Assembly: GCF_006716095.1 (NCBI RefSeq)
Contig: NZ_VFOK01000001.1
Span: 2,635,375 to 2,699,374, forward strand
Origin: Barrientosiimonas humi
Lineage (GTDB): Bacteria > Actinomycetota > Actinomycetes > Actinomycetales > Dermatophilaceae
Reading direction: 5' to 3'
DNA: 64,000 bases
Part shown: piece by piece, positions 9,816 to 63,840 of the stretch
Layout of the letters: every line of letters starts with the position of its first letter
Position numbering within the stretch: position 1 is the first letter of the stretch
Made by a program: the position numbers and the translations under genes
The notes under the pieces: model-generated
What the model saw: the letters and a program-made list of their open reading frames with translations, nothing else
Told to the model about the DNA's origin: nothing
Database searches by the model: none

Positions 9816-9891
9816 GCCCTCGTAGCTCAGGGGATAGAGCACCGCTCTCCTAAAGCGGGTGTCGCGCGTTCGAATCGCGCCGAGGGCACCA
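9816..9891 (+). tRNA. tRNA-Arg (anticodon CCT)
   Basis: A 76-nt cloverleaf with acceptor stem GCCCTCG/CGAGGGC, D-arm GCTC...GAGC, anticodon arm CCGCT-CTCCTAA-AGCGG with anticodon CCT (reads AGG), TΨC arm GCGCG-TTCGAAT-CGCGC, discriminator A, and an encoded CCA. A TAGACT -10 box lies at 9799-9804. The 3' end reappears in degraded form at 10520-10553. Confidence 0.96.
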
Positions 9892-22150: not shown

Positions 22151-22927
22151 TCACCGCCTCCGCGGCGACGAGCCAGCAGCTGCCGGAGGAGGAGCCGCGG
22201 CAGAAGGACCGATCCGCTTCAACGCCTCCCGTCGCGACAGGGATGACAACCGCCCCTCGCGCTCGGCCACGAACGCCCGCACCCAGTCCGGTGCGGTGGT
22301 CGACAGGTCGCGCAGCGCCCACCCGATCGCCTTGCGCACGAAGAAGTCCGGGTCGTCCAGGTTGGCGTCGACGACGTCGCGCAGCAGGTCGGTGTCGGTG
22401 CGGTCCTTGGCCCGCAGCTGACCGATGATCGCCGCCCGGCGCAGCCACCGGTCGGGGTCGCGCGCCCACTCCCGCAGCCGGGCCGCCTCCCCGACCGGGT
22501 CGCGCAGCCGCACCTCGGCGACCACGTGCGCGGCGTCGTCGACCAGGTCCCACCAGGCGCCCGTCACCACCAGGTGGCGCACCAGCGGCATCACGCCGGG
22601 GTCGCGCCAGGCGCGGTACGCCCGGTGCCGCAGCAGACCCAGCGCGGCGTAACGCTCCTCGCGGAACCGGGCACCGTCGTACAGCAGCCGCACCGCGCGC
22701 TCCCACTCCGCCCGGTCCCCGACCGGCACCGCGAGCGCCGGCCGCAGCAGGGTGCGCAGCTGCGGGGAGGTGATCCCCCGGAACGGCATCGACGAGCGCA
22801 TGTACGCCTGCTGCGCCGCCGCGCGCTCGGCGTCGCCGGCGGCGCGCACGAGCCCGCGCACCTGCGCCACGACCTGCGGATCGCCCACCACCCCACGGTA
22901 GGTGCGCGCGACCTCGCGCAGCATCAC
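22151..22927 (-). CDS. DNA alkylation repair protein (AlkC/AlkD-like HEAT repeats)
   Basis: A 258-residue all-helical protein of the AlkD family, DNA glycosylases excising bulky cationic alkylpurines through a HEAT-repeat fold. Typical stretches are MRSSMPFRGITSPQLRTLLRP, the W-rich VTGAWWDLVDDAAHVV, RWLRRAAIIGQL and DPDFFVRKAIGWALRDL. The start is GTG 22927 or the adjacent ATG 22924. It is divergent from the SDR gene at 22966, with only 38 bp for both promoters. The C-terminal Pro/Ala/Ser/Arg tail is low complexity. Confidence 0.88.
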   Translation of the reverse strand: MMLREVARTYRGVVGDPQVVAQVRGLVRAAGDAERAAAQQAYMRSSMPFRGITSPQLRTLLRPALAVPVGDRAEWERAVRLLYDGARFREERYAALGLLRHRAYRAWRDPGVMPLVRHLVVTGAWWDLVDDAAHVVAEVRLRDPVGEAARLREWARDPDRWLRRAAIIGQLRAKDRTDTDLLRDVVDANLDDPDFFVRKAIGWALRDLSTTAPDWVRAFVAEREGRLSSLSRREALKRIGPSAAAPPPAAAGSSPRRR

Positions 22928-23834: not shown

Positions 23835-24740
23835 TCACATGACCCGGCCGTAGCTGATGTTCGAACCCCACATCTTGTGCACCTGGACCGTCTTGCCGGG
23901 GCTCGGCGAGTCGATCACGAGGCCGTTGCCCACGTAGATCATCACGTGGGTCGCGGGGTAGTTGTAGAACACCAGGTCGCCCGGACGGGGGCTCGAGGTG
24001 CGGGTCGCGAACGCCTGCTGGGCGCGCGCGGTGCGGGGCAGCTCGATGCCGATCTGGCGGTAGACGTAGCTGGTGAAGCCCGAGCAGTCGAAGCCGCTCG
24101 GGGTCGAGCCGCCGTAGACGTACGGCGTGCCGATGTAGCGCTTGGCGATCTCGACGACCTGCGCGCCCTTGGACGAGGCCGGAGCGGTCGGCGCGGGCGC
24201 CGGCTCGGTCTTCGGCGCCTCCGGACGCTCGGTGGAGCGGCTCGTCGTGCGGGTCGGAGCCTCGTCGCGGTCGGTCGTGGTGCGCCGCTCGGGGGTGCTG
24301 GTCGCGTGCGAGTGCTCGGTGCGCTCGCGCTTCTTGCGCTCGGTGCGCTGCGGCTGGGCCGAGCGCTCGGAGCGGAACTCGCGCTTGGGCTCGCTCTTGG
24401 TCTCGCTCTTGCGCGCCTTCTTGACGATGATCAGGTCGTCAGCGAACTCGATGCGGGGCAGCGTGACGCGGCCGTGAGCGATCGCGCCGGACGCGGCGAC
24501 GGAGCCGACGGGCGGGGCGGCGACGGGAGCAACCGGGGCAGCCGGAGCGGCGACGGGAGCGGCCGGGGCGGCGCCCGGGACGACGGTGCCGACCGCGGTG
24601 GCGGCGTCGGCAGGTGCGGCGACCGCAGCCACCAGACCGCCGGAGACGGCCACGGCCGCCGAGACGCGCGCGGTCGAGGAGACGGCGGATGACAGACGGC
24701 TGGGAGCGCGGTGACGACCGCGCGGGGTGTGCTGAGACAC
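23835..24740 (-). CDS. Secreted NlpC/P60 peptidoglycan endopeptidase
   Basis: A 301-residue exported cell-wall hydrolase. The N-terminus is basic, followed by a hydrophobic segment ending in ADA (signal peptide, about 25-47). A long Pro/Ala then Lys/Arg/Glu-rich linker runs to about 190, followed by an NlpC/P60 domain with catalytic Cys near 219 (GFDCSGF), His near 266 (THVMIYVG) and the third polar residue in the following VIDSPSPG stretch. It would cleave within stem peptides during wall turnover. The GTG start is preceded by GAGAGG at 7 nt. A c-di-AMP riboswitch lies in the leader, a regulation common for actinobacterial wall hydrolases. Confidence 0.92.
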   Translation of the reverse strand: MSQHTPRGRHRAPSRLSSAVSSTARVSAAVAVSGGLVAAVAAPADAATAVGTVVPGAAPAAPVAAPAAPVAPVAAPPVGSVAASGAIAHGRVTLPRIEFADDLIIVKKARKSETKSEPKREFRSERSAQPQRTERKKRERTEHSHATSTPERRTTTDRDEAPTRTTSRSTERPEAPKTEPAPAPTAPASSKGAQVVEIAKRYIGTPYVYGGSTPSGFDCSGFTSYVYRQIGIELPRTARAQQAFATRTSSPRPGDLVFYNYPATHVMIYVGNGLVIDSPSPGKTVQVHKMWGSNISYGRVM

Positions 24741-27385: not shown

Positions 27386-27399
27386 TTCCGGGCATGAGA

Positions 27400-27465
27400 C
27401 AACCCGTGGGTTCCGCTGGCGGGGCCAACGGGCGCACGATGGACGAGTCGTGCTCCCACGGGTTG
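27400..27465. terminator. Long palindrome after the DUF305 gene
   Basis: Outer arms CAACCCGTGGG/CCCACGGGTTG (11 bp) enclose an inner hairpin GCACGA/TCGTGC (27434-27453). It lies 14 bp after the stop codon and is probably a transcription end, for this gene or for the small minus-strand ORF facing it. Confidence 0.6.
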
Positions 27466-27533
27466 CGGTGACCGGCTGGGATTGCCGGCGCCGTCCTAGG
27501 TCGGGCACCGGAGGTGCCGACGGATGGTCAGCG

Positions 27534-27572
27534 CTAGCGCGCGGCCACCTCACGCGTCCTTGAAGAATTCAC
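27534..27572 (-). CDS. 12-codon ORF with extreme Shine-Dalgarno sequence
   Basis: Encodes MNSSRTREVAAR (GTG start at 27572, TAG stop). Upstream on the same strand is AGAGAGGAGGTGGTCC, almost the full complement of the 16S rRNA 3' end, 7 nt before the start. Downstream, GTCGGCACC and GGTGCCCGAC form a compact hairpin. From memory, near-identical ORFs occur in other actinobacteria. It may be a leader or attenuator peptide or part of an RNA. No larger coding frame follows it on this strand, so its target is unclear. Confidence 0.5.
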   Translation of the reverse strand: MNSSRTREVAAR

Positions 27573-27721
27573 TCCTGGACCACCTCCTCTCTCGTGTGCC
27601 TGCACGGTAAGTCGCGCGCCCCCGCCGACTCAAGAGGTTTAGCCGCCCCACACCGACGACCACCCGCGACACGAACTTTTTTCCACCCCTGAAGCGGTCG
27701 AAGGAACACCCCGGGTGGCGC

Positions 27722-63764: not shown

Positions 63765-63840
63765 GCCGGTGTAGCTCAGTTGGTAGAGCGCCTCTCTTGT
63801 AAAGAGGATGTCGCGGGTTCGACTCCTGTCACCGGCTCCA
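63765..63840 (+). tRNA. tRNA-Thr (anticodon TGT)
   Basis: A 76-nt cloverleaf: acceptor GCCGGTG/CACCGGC, D-arm GCTC...GAGC, anticodon arm CCTCT-CTTGTAA-AGAGG with anticodon TGT, TΨC loop GTTCGAC, discriminator T and an encoded CCA. The -10 TAGCCT (63734-63739) overlaps the upstream stop codon. Confidence 0.96.

Follow-up and report, generated by a model that had tools for sequence, protein, structure and literature searches.

A homologue of Ms_IGR-5 with a conserved 12-codon reading frame woven into its core helices

Background

SgrS and RNAIII are structured RNAs that carry a short open reading frame (ORF), and tmRNA is a structured RNA with both a short ORF and a pseudoknot. In the frameshift signal of prfB, an internal Shine-Dalgarno (SD) sequence lies about three bases before the codon that occupies the P site at the stop. 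A short ORF behind a strong SD sequence is typical of leader peptides and attenuators.

The family to which the element described here could be assigned, Ms_IGR-5, was reportedly named in a paper by Li and others in 2013. The parts of the published texts that were accessible describe Ms_IGR-5 as an RNA-seq-validated sRNA in S. lividans (PMC8079986), match it to a transcription unit in S. avermitilis (PMC8780764) and place it in overlap with ncMSMEG15794c in M. smegmatis (PMC10454040). For the homologues of M. abscessus and M. smegmatis, the available text of PMC4974804 reports ribosomal reads, together with that paper's own warning that sedimentation can co-pellet ribonucleoproteins, so that such reads need not represent translating ribosomes. 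The accessible portions of the openly licensed literature yielded no description of the function of Ms_IGR-5, of its ORF or of its 16S rRNA complement. Here, the element is analysed in a 64-kb stretch of Barrientosiimonas humi DNA (referred to as the window) and compared with its relatives.

Results

Identity and surroundings of the element

The site that the initial annotation had singled out is the 5' end of a free-standing structured RNA (Table 1). The Rfam covariance model RF02471 (Ms_IGR-5, filed under the Rfam type sRNA gene) matched the element end to end (model positions 1-184 of 184; window 27394-27597, minus strand) with 69.3 bits, against a gathering cut-off of 45, and this was the single match in the whole genome. 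A full-length model, R1, gave 128.5 bits (E 5e-30) on the element, which is itself among the 99 rows from which R1 was built.

Table 1 Positions of the RNA element and its parts in the window
Feature	Position	Strand	Remark
Whole RNA element, Ms_IGR-5 (RF02471) homologue	27394..27598	minus	about 205 nt
-35-like element CTTGAG	27629-27634	minus	weak
-10-like element TACCGT	27604..27609	minus	upstream of the RNA
SD1, 16-base complement of the 16S rRNA 3' end	27577..27592	minus	sequence AGAGAGGAGGTGGTCC
P1 5' strand GUCC, end of SD1	27577..27580	minus	encloses the start codon by pairing with GGAC of codons 5-6
12-codon ORF plus stop, GTG...TAG, MNSSRTREVAAR	27534..27572	minus	
GGAC of codons 5-6	27556..27559	minus	pairs either in P1 or, as a pseudoknot, with the 3' loop
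SD2, GAGGUG of codons 8-9	27546..27551	minus	lies six bases upstream of the last sense codon
P2 5' strand, from base 3 of codon 8 through codon 11	27540..27549	minus	
P2 3' strand GCCGGUCACC	27467..27476	minus	
P4, long closing stem of the 3' domain	27400..27465	minus	arms 27455-27465 and 27400-27410
Hairpin P4a	27434..27453	minus	GUCC in loop
CGUCC in the P4a loop	27441..27445	minus	pseudoknot partner of GGACG in the ORF

Among 153 upstream sequences of relatives, a TANNNT motif starting 21-25 bases before GGAGG gave 152 position counts. A strict-consensus promoter scan of the 64-kb window found no promoter. Upstream of the RNA, on the same strand, lies what we take from its translation to be a pdxH-like gene, and a presumably DUF305-like gene, likewise named from its translation, converges on the 3' end. 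In some loci outside the class of the host (among L323-L342), P4 is followed by a further GC-rich hairpin and a T run, and in loci of the Spirochaetia group (L201, L359-L363, L365) a T-rich run follows P4 directly (both read by eye). Since this arrangement differs between loci, P4 need not be the terminator everywhere. Elsewhere in the window, a c-di-AMP riboswitch (RF00379, 24744-24920, minus strand, 69 bits) directly precedes an ORF (23835-24740, minus strand) that is presumably NlpC/P60-like, and two tRNA genes lie on the plus strand (9816-9888 and 63765-63837).

Complementarity to the 16S rRNA tail

The 3' region of the genome's own 16S rRNA, present in two copies, reads GGATCACCTCCTTTCT; the position at which the mature 16S ends was assumed. 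SD1 pairs with this tail at 16 of 16 positions (14 Watson-Crick and two G-U), with a predicted duplex energy of -30.0 kcal/mol. The near-complete anti-SD complement of the initial annotation was therefore present, and it was also the strongest site on the scanned grid: among 31,990 20-base windows, taken from both strands of the 64-kb window on a 4-base grid, the two lowest duplex energies (-29.6 and -28.3 kcal/mol) both belonged to the SD1 site. The next-best complement elsewhere on the grid, at 22761-22780 on the plus strand, reached -24.0 kcal/mol. The bare motif AGGAGGTGRTC is not unique, with 12 copies in the genome (two of them antisense to 16S) versus 5 for a reversed control pattern.

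In 187 loci found by the Rfam model, and with one and the same 16S tail assumed for every locus, SD1 was paired at 16 positions in 161, at 15 in 25 and at 14 in one. The distance from the GGAGG core to the start codon was mostly 10-12 bases (range 10 to 13; 7 in L201), which is long for an efficient SD site.

A reading frame conserved in geometry

The twelve-codon ORF at 27572-27534, from a GTG start to TAG, was present as described. Its conservation was scored in 307 loci, in which start, frame and stop position were kept. In all 307 the stop lay exactly five codons after an internal GAG, and 306 had an NTG start (ATG, GTG or TTG; ATT in L140). The ORF was 12 codons long in 305 of the 307 (14 in L201), and the start stayed in frame although its distance to GGAGG varied.

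Substitutions were counted in 153 distinct ORFs, all from loci found by the Rfam model; distinct here means a distinct sequence, not an independent origin, and the counts ignore kinship. Starts were ATG (59), GTG (58), TTG (35) and ATT (1), the first base never being C, and stops were TAG (125), TGA (26) and TAA (2). No ORF contained an in-frame stop in codons 2-12, versus 48/153 and 142/153 in the other two frames. Codons 2-4 varied freely among mixed amino acids. Codon 6 encoded Thr in 151 ORFs, with all four Thr codons in use, and codon 7 encoded Arg, Cys, Ser, Leu, His or Gly. GAG and GTG were found in 153/153 ORFs each, without a synonymous variant at either codon. The near-constant part of the peptide is only the motif T-x-E-V.

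The way in which the loci were collected affects how these counts can be read. The scored set holds 187 of the 189 non-pattern loci (L001-L149, L270-L309); L087 and L308 were left out, the latter being a two-base dummy, and L087 conforms to the ORF pattern when read by eye. The pattern-set loci L150-L269 were chosen by a motif that holds parts of SD1, GGAC and GTGAGGTG, so that the conserved letters of these three prove nothing there. The locus sets overlap, and some named loci share contigs with unnamed ones. The Rfam model, R1 and the 5' model R2 include ORF columns, so that their matches are biased towards likeness. Such a bias does not account for the exchange of start and stop codons among the matches.

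Outside the class of the host, 20 loci were examined. An NTG start was found by script in 15 of them, with ORFs of 13-15 codons. The script found none in L324, L325, L328, L336 and L337, which by eye have a near-cognate CTG, ATT, ATC or ACG near the place of the start. In L323, L324 and L326, Pro replaces the Thr of T-x-E-V.

Because the start-stop geometry is constant while codons 2-4 are mixed, start, frame, length and stop are, on comparative evidence, under selection, and the peptide is for the most part not conserved. These findings suggest that the RNA requires the act of translation and not its product.

Within the ORF, the spacing from GAGGTG over three codons to the stop, with six bases to the P-site codon, was found in every ORF scored. 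With the stop codon in the A site, GAGGUG would lie approximately where an SD sequence sits relative to a start codon. It was named SD2 because of this SD-like distance and because it is invariant though only GGUG is paired in P2; its action on the ribosome is putative. The predicted energy of its duplex with the 16S tail is -14.1 kcal/mol. GAGGTG is kept in loci L359-L362, at 30-38% GC, where codons ending in A or T would be expected. Re-initiation at a second ORF behind SD2 was considered and rejected, as the alignment, read by eye, has no conserved ATG, GTG or TTG at a usable distance.

The ORF forms one side of the RNA fold

The initial annotation had missed both the membership in a named Rfam family and the fact that a large part of the ORF doubles as the 5' strand of conserved RNA helices. 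Partners for codons 5-6 and 8-13 lie in the 3' half of the RNA, with which they can form a pseudoknot, P2 and, less firmly, P3. The "compact hairpin" that had been noted after the stop codon is indeed structured, but it belongs to this larger RNA.

The structure was scored on alignment A1, which holds 99 RNAs thinned for redundancy. Of its cells 87.0% were paired, versus 76.8% after shuffling and 35-42% when slid. In 21 further loci, which were not in the model but were aligned by it, 86.8% of the cells were paired, versus 66.9% after shuffling and 35-47% when slid; this is the better test, because the structure was read from the A1 alignment itself.

The helices differ in their evidence. P1 was paired in 97.0% of cells, without a pair that had changed on both sides. 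When codons 2-4 were swapped between species, the mean energy of the start hairpin rose from -6.77 to -5.87 kcal/mol, and none of 100 shuffles was as low as the former; these codons add stability to the P1 start hairpin. P2, formed by codons 8-11 and GGCAGUCACC, was paired in 96.0% of cells, and 6 of its 10 pairs had changes on both sides. P3, between codon 12, the stop and a few further bases on one side and the strand before the P2 3' strand on the other, was weaker (78.4% and 60.0% paired), and the middle base of the stop codon was unpaired in 62 of 97 rows. P4 was paired in 97.4% of cells, with both-sided changes in 9/10 pairs, and P4a in 72.9%, with such changes in 7/7. Before the P2 3' strand lies a conserved, unpaired, AAUNCCN-like stretch. 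In constrained folding, from which the pseudoknot was excluded, P2 survived a ribosome footprint on the start codon and was lost with a footprint on the stop codon.

In the pseudoknot helix, GGACN of codons 5-6 can pair with NGUCC of the P4a loop. The variable pair was Watson-Crick in 29 of 45 class rows versus 14.5 expected (0 of 20,000 shuffles), while eight control columns gave p values of 0.1 or more. In the order rows it was Watson-Crick in 36/51 versus 34.0 expected, which is not significant. In loci from outside the class, covariation is seen at the far end of the helix (13 of 21 versus 6.5 expected; 6 of 10,000), with C:G in place of the usual G:C in L327 and L340. The near, variable base pairs there in 9/21 rows, without covariation, and at least three of these rows (L323, L324, L326) are out of register by one base. 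Additional pairs beside the pseudoknot, at columns 49:270 and 43:278, were rejected for lack of covariation within the class; 43:278 does covary outside it.

In the structure filed for RF02471, SD1 is paired with codons 10-11, the P2 3' strand is single-stranded and a pseudoknot is lacking. This SD1 pairing showed no both-sided changes and was paired in 92.8% of cells, versus 92.9% for shuffles. Of the two, the structure proposed here has the better support.

Distribution

RF02471 matched 120 of 297 genomes of the host's order and 249 of 394 genomes sampled from its class; the 5' model R2 matched 76 of 246 genomes in the phylum (59 of these from other classes), 6 of 48 in the class of a Spirochaetia metagenome-assembled genome (MAG) and 5 of 198 in the phylum of that MAG. 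These searches, each over more than 40 genomes, were run with stricter filters, by which weak matches are lost. All 20 genomes examined among the 59 outside the class matched the full-length model R1, and in all 20 the stop lay five codons after GAG. A pattern scan of named genomes gave at least 120 loci, and among the matches listed were Mycobacterium, Streptomyces, Nocardioides, Micromonospora, Frankia, Amycolatopsis, Cellulomonas and the Spirochaetia MAG. Seven genomes of the group of this MAG (MAG included) matched R1 over its full length with 48-64 bits and had the same ORF ending, and T-x-E-V was present in all seven (translated by eye). The statement in the initial annotation that near-identical sequences recur in other actinobacteria was borne out by the RF02471 and pattern matches across order and class, and selection on the whole cassette, which it had suggested, was confirmed.

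When 24 genomes without an earlier match, eleven of them from the host's own family, were searched again with R2 at E 0.1, 23 gave nothing, and a weak match in the remaining one was not sustained. Many genomes lack the RNA, which is therefore dispensable. From comparison of its relatives we conclude that the RNA is real, deeply conserved and translated-looking.

A phage origin was rejected after two exact-pattern scans of viral_contigs and a blastn search of phages without a match. A plasmid origin was also rejected: the plasmid collection gave one partial match, on a 2.66 Mb record of Nocardia farcinica (NZ_LN868939.1, 133587-133654), which covers the 5' part of the RNA with 79% identity. The Caulobacter family CC2171 (RF01867) overlapped the full length of the RNA at L337/L357 below threshold (28.5 bits versus a cut-off of 75). 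A link to this family was not retained, since the match in L358 proved to be a GC-rich hairpin and CC2171 also gave weak signals in 6 of 14 control genomes; the overlap may be due to chance or to distant kinship.

Discussion

The reading that explains most of these features, which we hold with slightly less than even confidence, is that of a free-standing structured RNA whose folding would be gated by its own translation. SD1 would capture a 30S subunit, and the 70S ribosome that translates the short ORF would melt P2, P3 and the pseudoknot on its way. Once the ribosome is at the stop codon, its anti-SD sequence could pair with SD2, six bases upstream of the P-site codon, and this pairing might hold the terminating ribosome, or the post-termination 30S subunit, and so keep the body of the RNA open. 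With few initiation-competent ribosomes available, or with initiation blocked, the RNA would refold to its compact, pseudoknotted form. Folding and translation would be mutually exclusive, and the two forms of the RNA would differ in stability or in binding partners. The RNA could in this way report, or buffer, free ribosome or initiation capacity, with target pairing, protein binding or ribosome retention as candidate outputs. The ribosome-sensing or ribosome-trapping element proposed initially fits this anatomy and is the best reading, with an output that is putative.

The same features can be read in other ways. SD1 and SD2 might simply hold 30S subunits or terminating ribosomes, so that less free 30S is left or leaderless mRNAs, which are common in actinobacteria, are favoured. 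The duplex energy of SD1 (-30.0 kcal/mol), its full pairing over 16 positions in 161 of 187 loci and an invariant SD2 at a fixed place before the stop would suit such a trap, but the covarying pseudoknot, P2 and P4 helices are then left unexplained, the copy number would have to be near that of ribosomes, and a plain 30S sponge needs no ORF; we consider it somewhat unlikely. It is unlikely, too, that the RNA is a dual-function base-pairing sRNA, in which translation would free the P2 3' strand and the AAUNCCN-like stretch for target mRNAs. That stretch is conserved and unpaired, the P2 3' strand leaves P2 in the predicted folding when a ribosome footprint is placed on the stop codon, and RF02471 is filed as an sRNA, with its own transcript in S. 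lividans and S. avermitilis according to the accessible text of PMC8079986 and PMC8780764. However, its covariation with the ORF restricts how far the P2 3' strand could serve as a fixed seed.

The peptide as the product, be it a functional microprotein or a stalling nascent chain with the motif T-x-E-V, is disfavoured and seems quite improbable: codons 2-4 are unconserved, the ORF has 13-15 codons in 15 of the 20 loci outside the class and Pro for Thr in 3 of the 20, the E and V codons never show a synonymous change, and changes in codons 6 and 10-11 are matched by changes in the strands they pair with. A role for the nascent chain is kept in play because T-x-E-V is also largely conserved at the amino-acid level (T in 151 of 153 distinct ORFs, E and V in all 153) and recurs in the seven genomes from the group of the Spirochaetia MAG. 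Both SD1 and SD2 are G-rich and might bind the C-rich loops of sRNAs such as 6C, which is widespread in actinobacteria. As a sponge of this kind leaves the conservation of start and stop codons unexplained, we regard it as very unlikely. The least probable of the alternatives is a leader peptide or attenuator of a neighbouring gene, another suggestion of the initial annotation. The short ORF with its strong SD sequence has the look of one, but the idea fails because no fixed gene follows: of 259 loci, the next gene downstream as called by a heuristic gene finder is on the same strand in 132, on the opposite strand in 125 and missing in 2, pdxH-, serC- and DtxR-like neighbours occur on both sides of the RNA where they are found at all, and the next gene in the window converges. 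The RNA also has a -10-like element of its own, and the peptide is mostly unconserved.

If gating by translation is extended to the family, this would be a deeply conserved type of RNA that takes its own translation as input and spans two phyla, one of them represented by several classes; the presence of a ribosome would decide its fold, the cell would measure free initiation capacity and the peptide would be a by-product. We put this forward as a tentative possibility. RF02471 is widespread, its range is here extended beyond its phylum, and, with a conserved ORF woven into its core helices, what was an anonymous sRNA can now be tested as a ribosome-coupled device.

Like tmRNA, the element combines a short ORF with an RNA fold that includes a pseudoknot; tmRNA is not among the four gathering-level Rfam matches in the window. 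It shares with the prfB frameshift signal an SD-like motif inside the ORF shortly before the stop. The spacing to the P-site codon is six bases here, versus about three in prfB, so that the prfB-type arrangement is not present, and the RNA is a natural setting in which to examine how an SD motif acts ahead of a stop codon. With the translated, dual-function sRNAs SgrS and RNAIII it has in common that a structured RNA carries a short ORF. It differs from both in that the ORF is itself the 5' strand of the core helices, and in that the peptide is mostly unconserved while start, length and stop are fixed.
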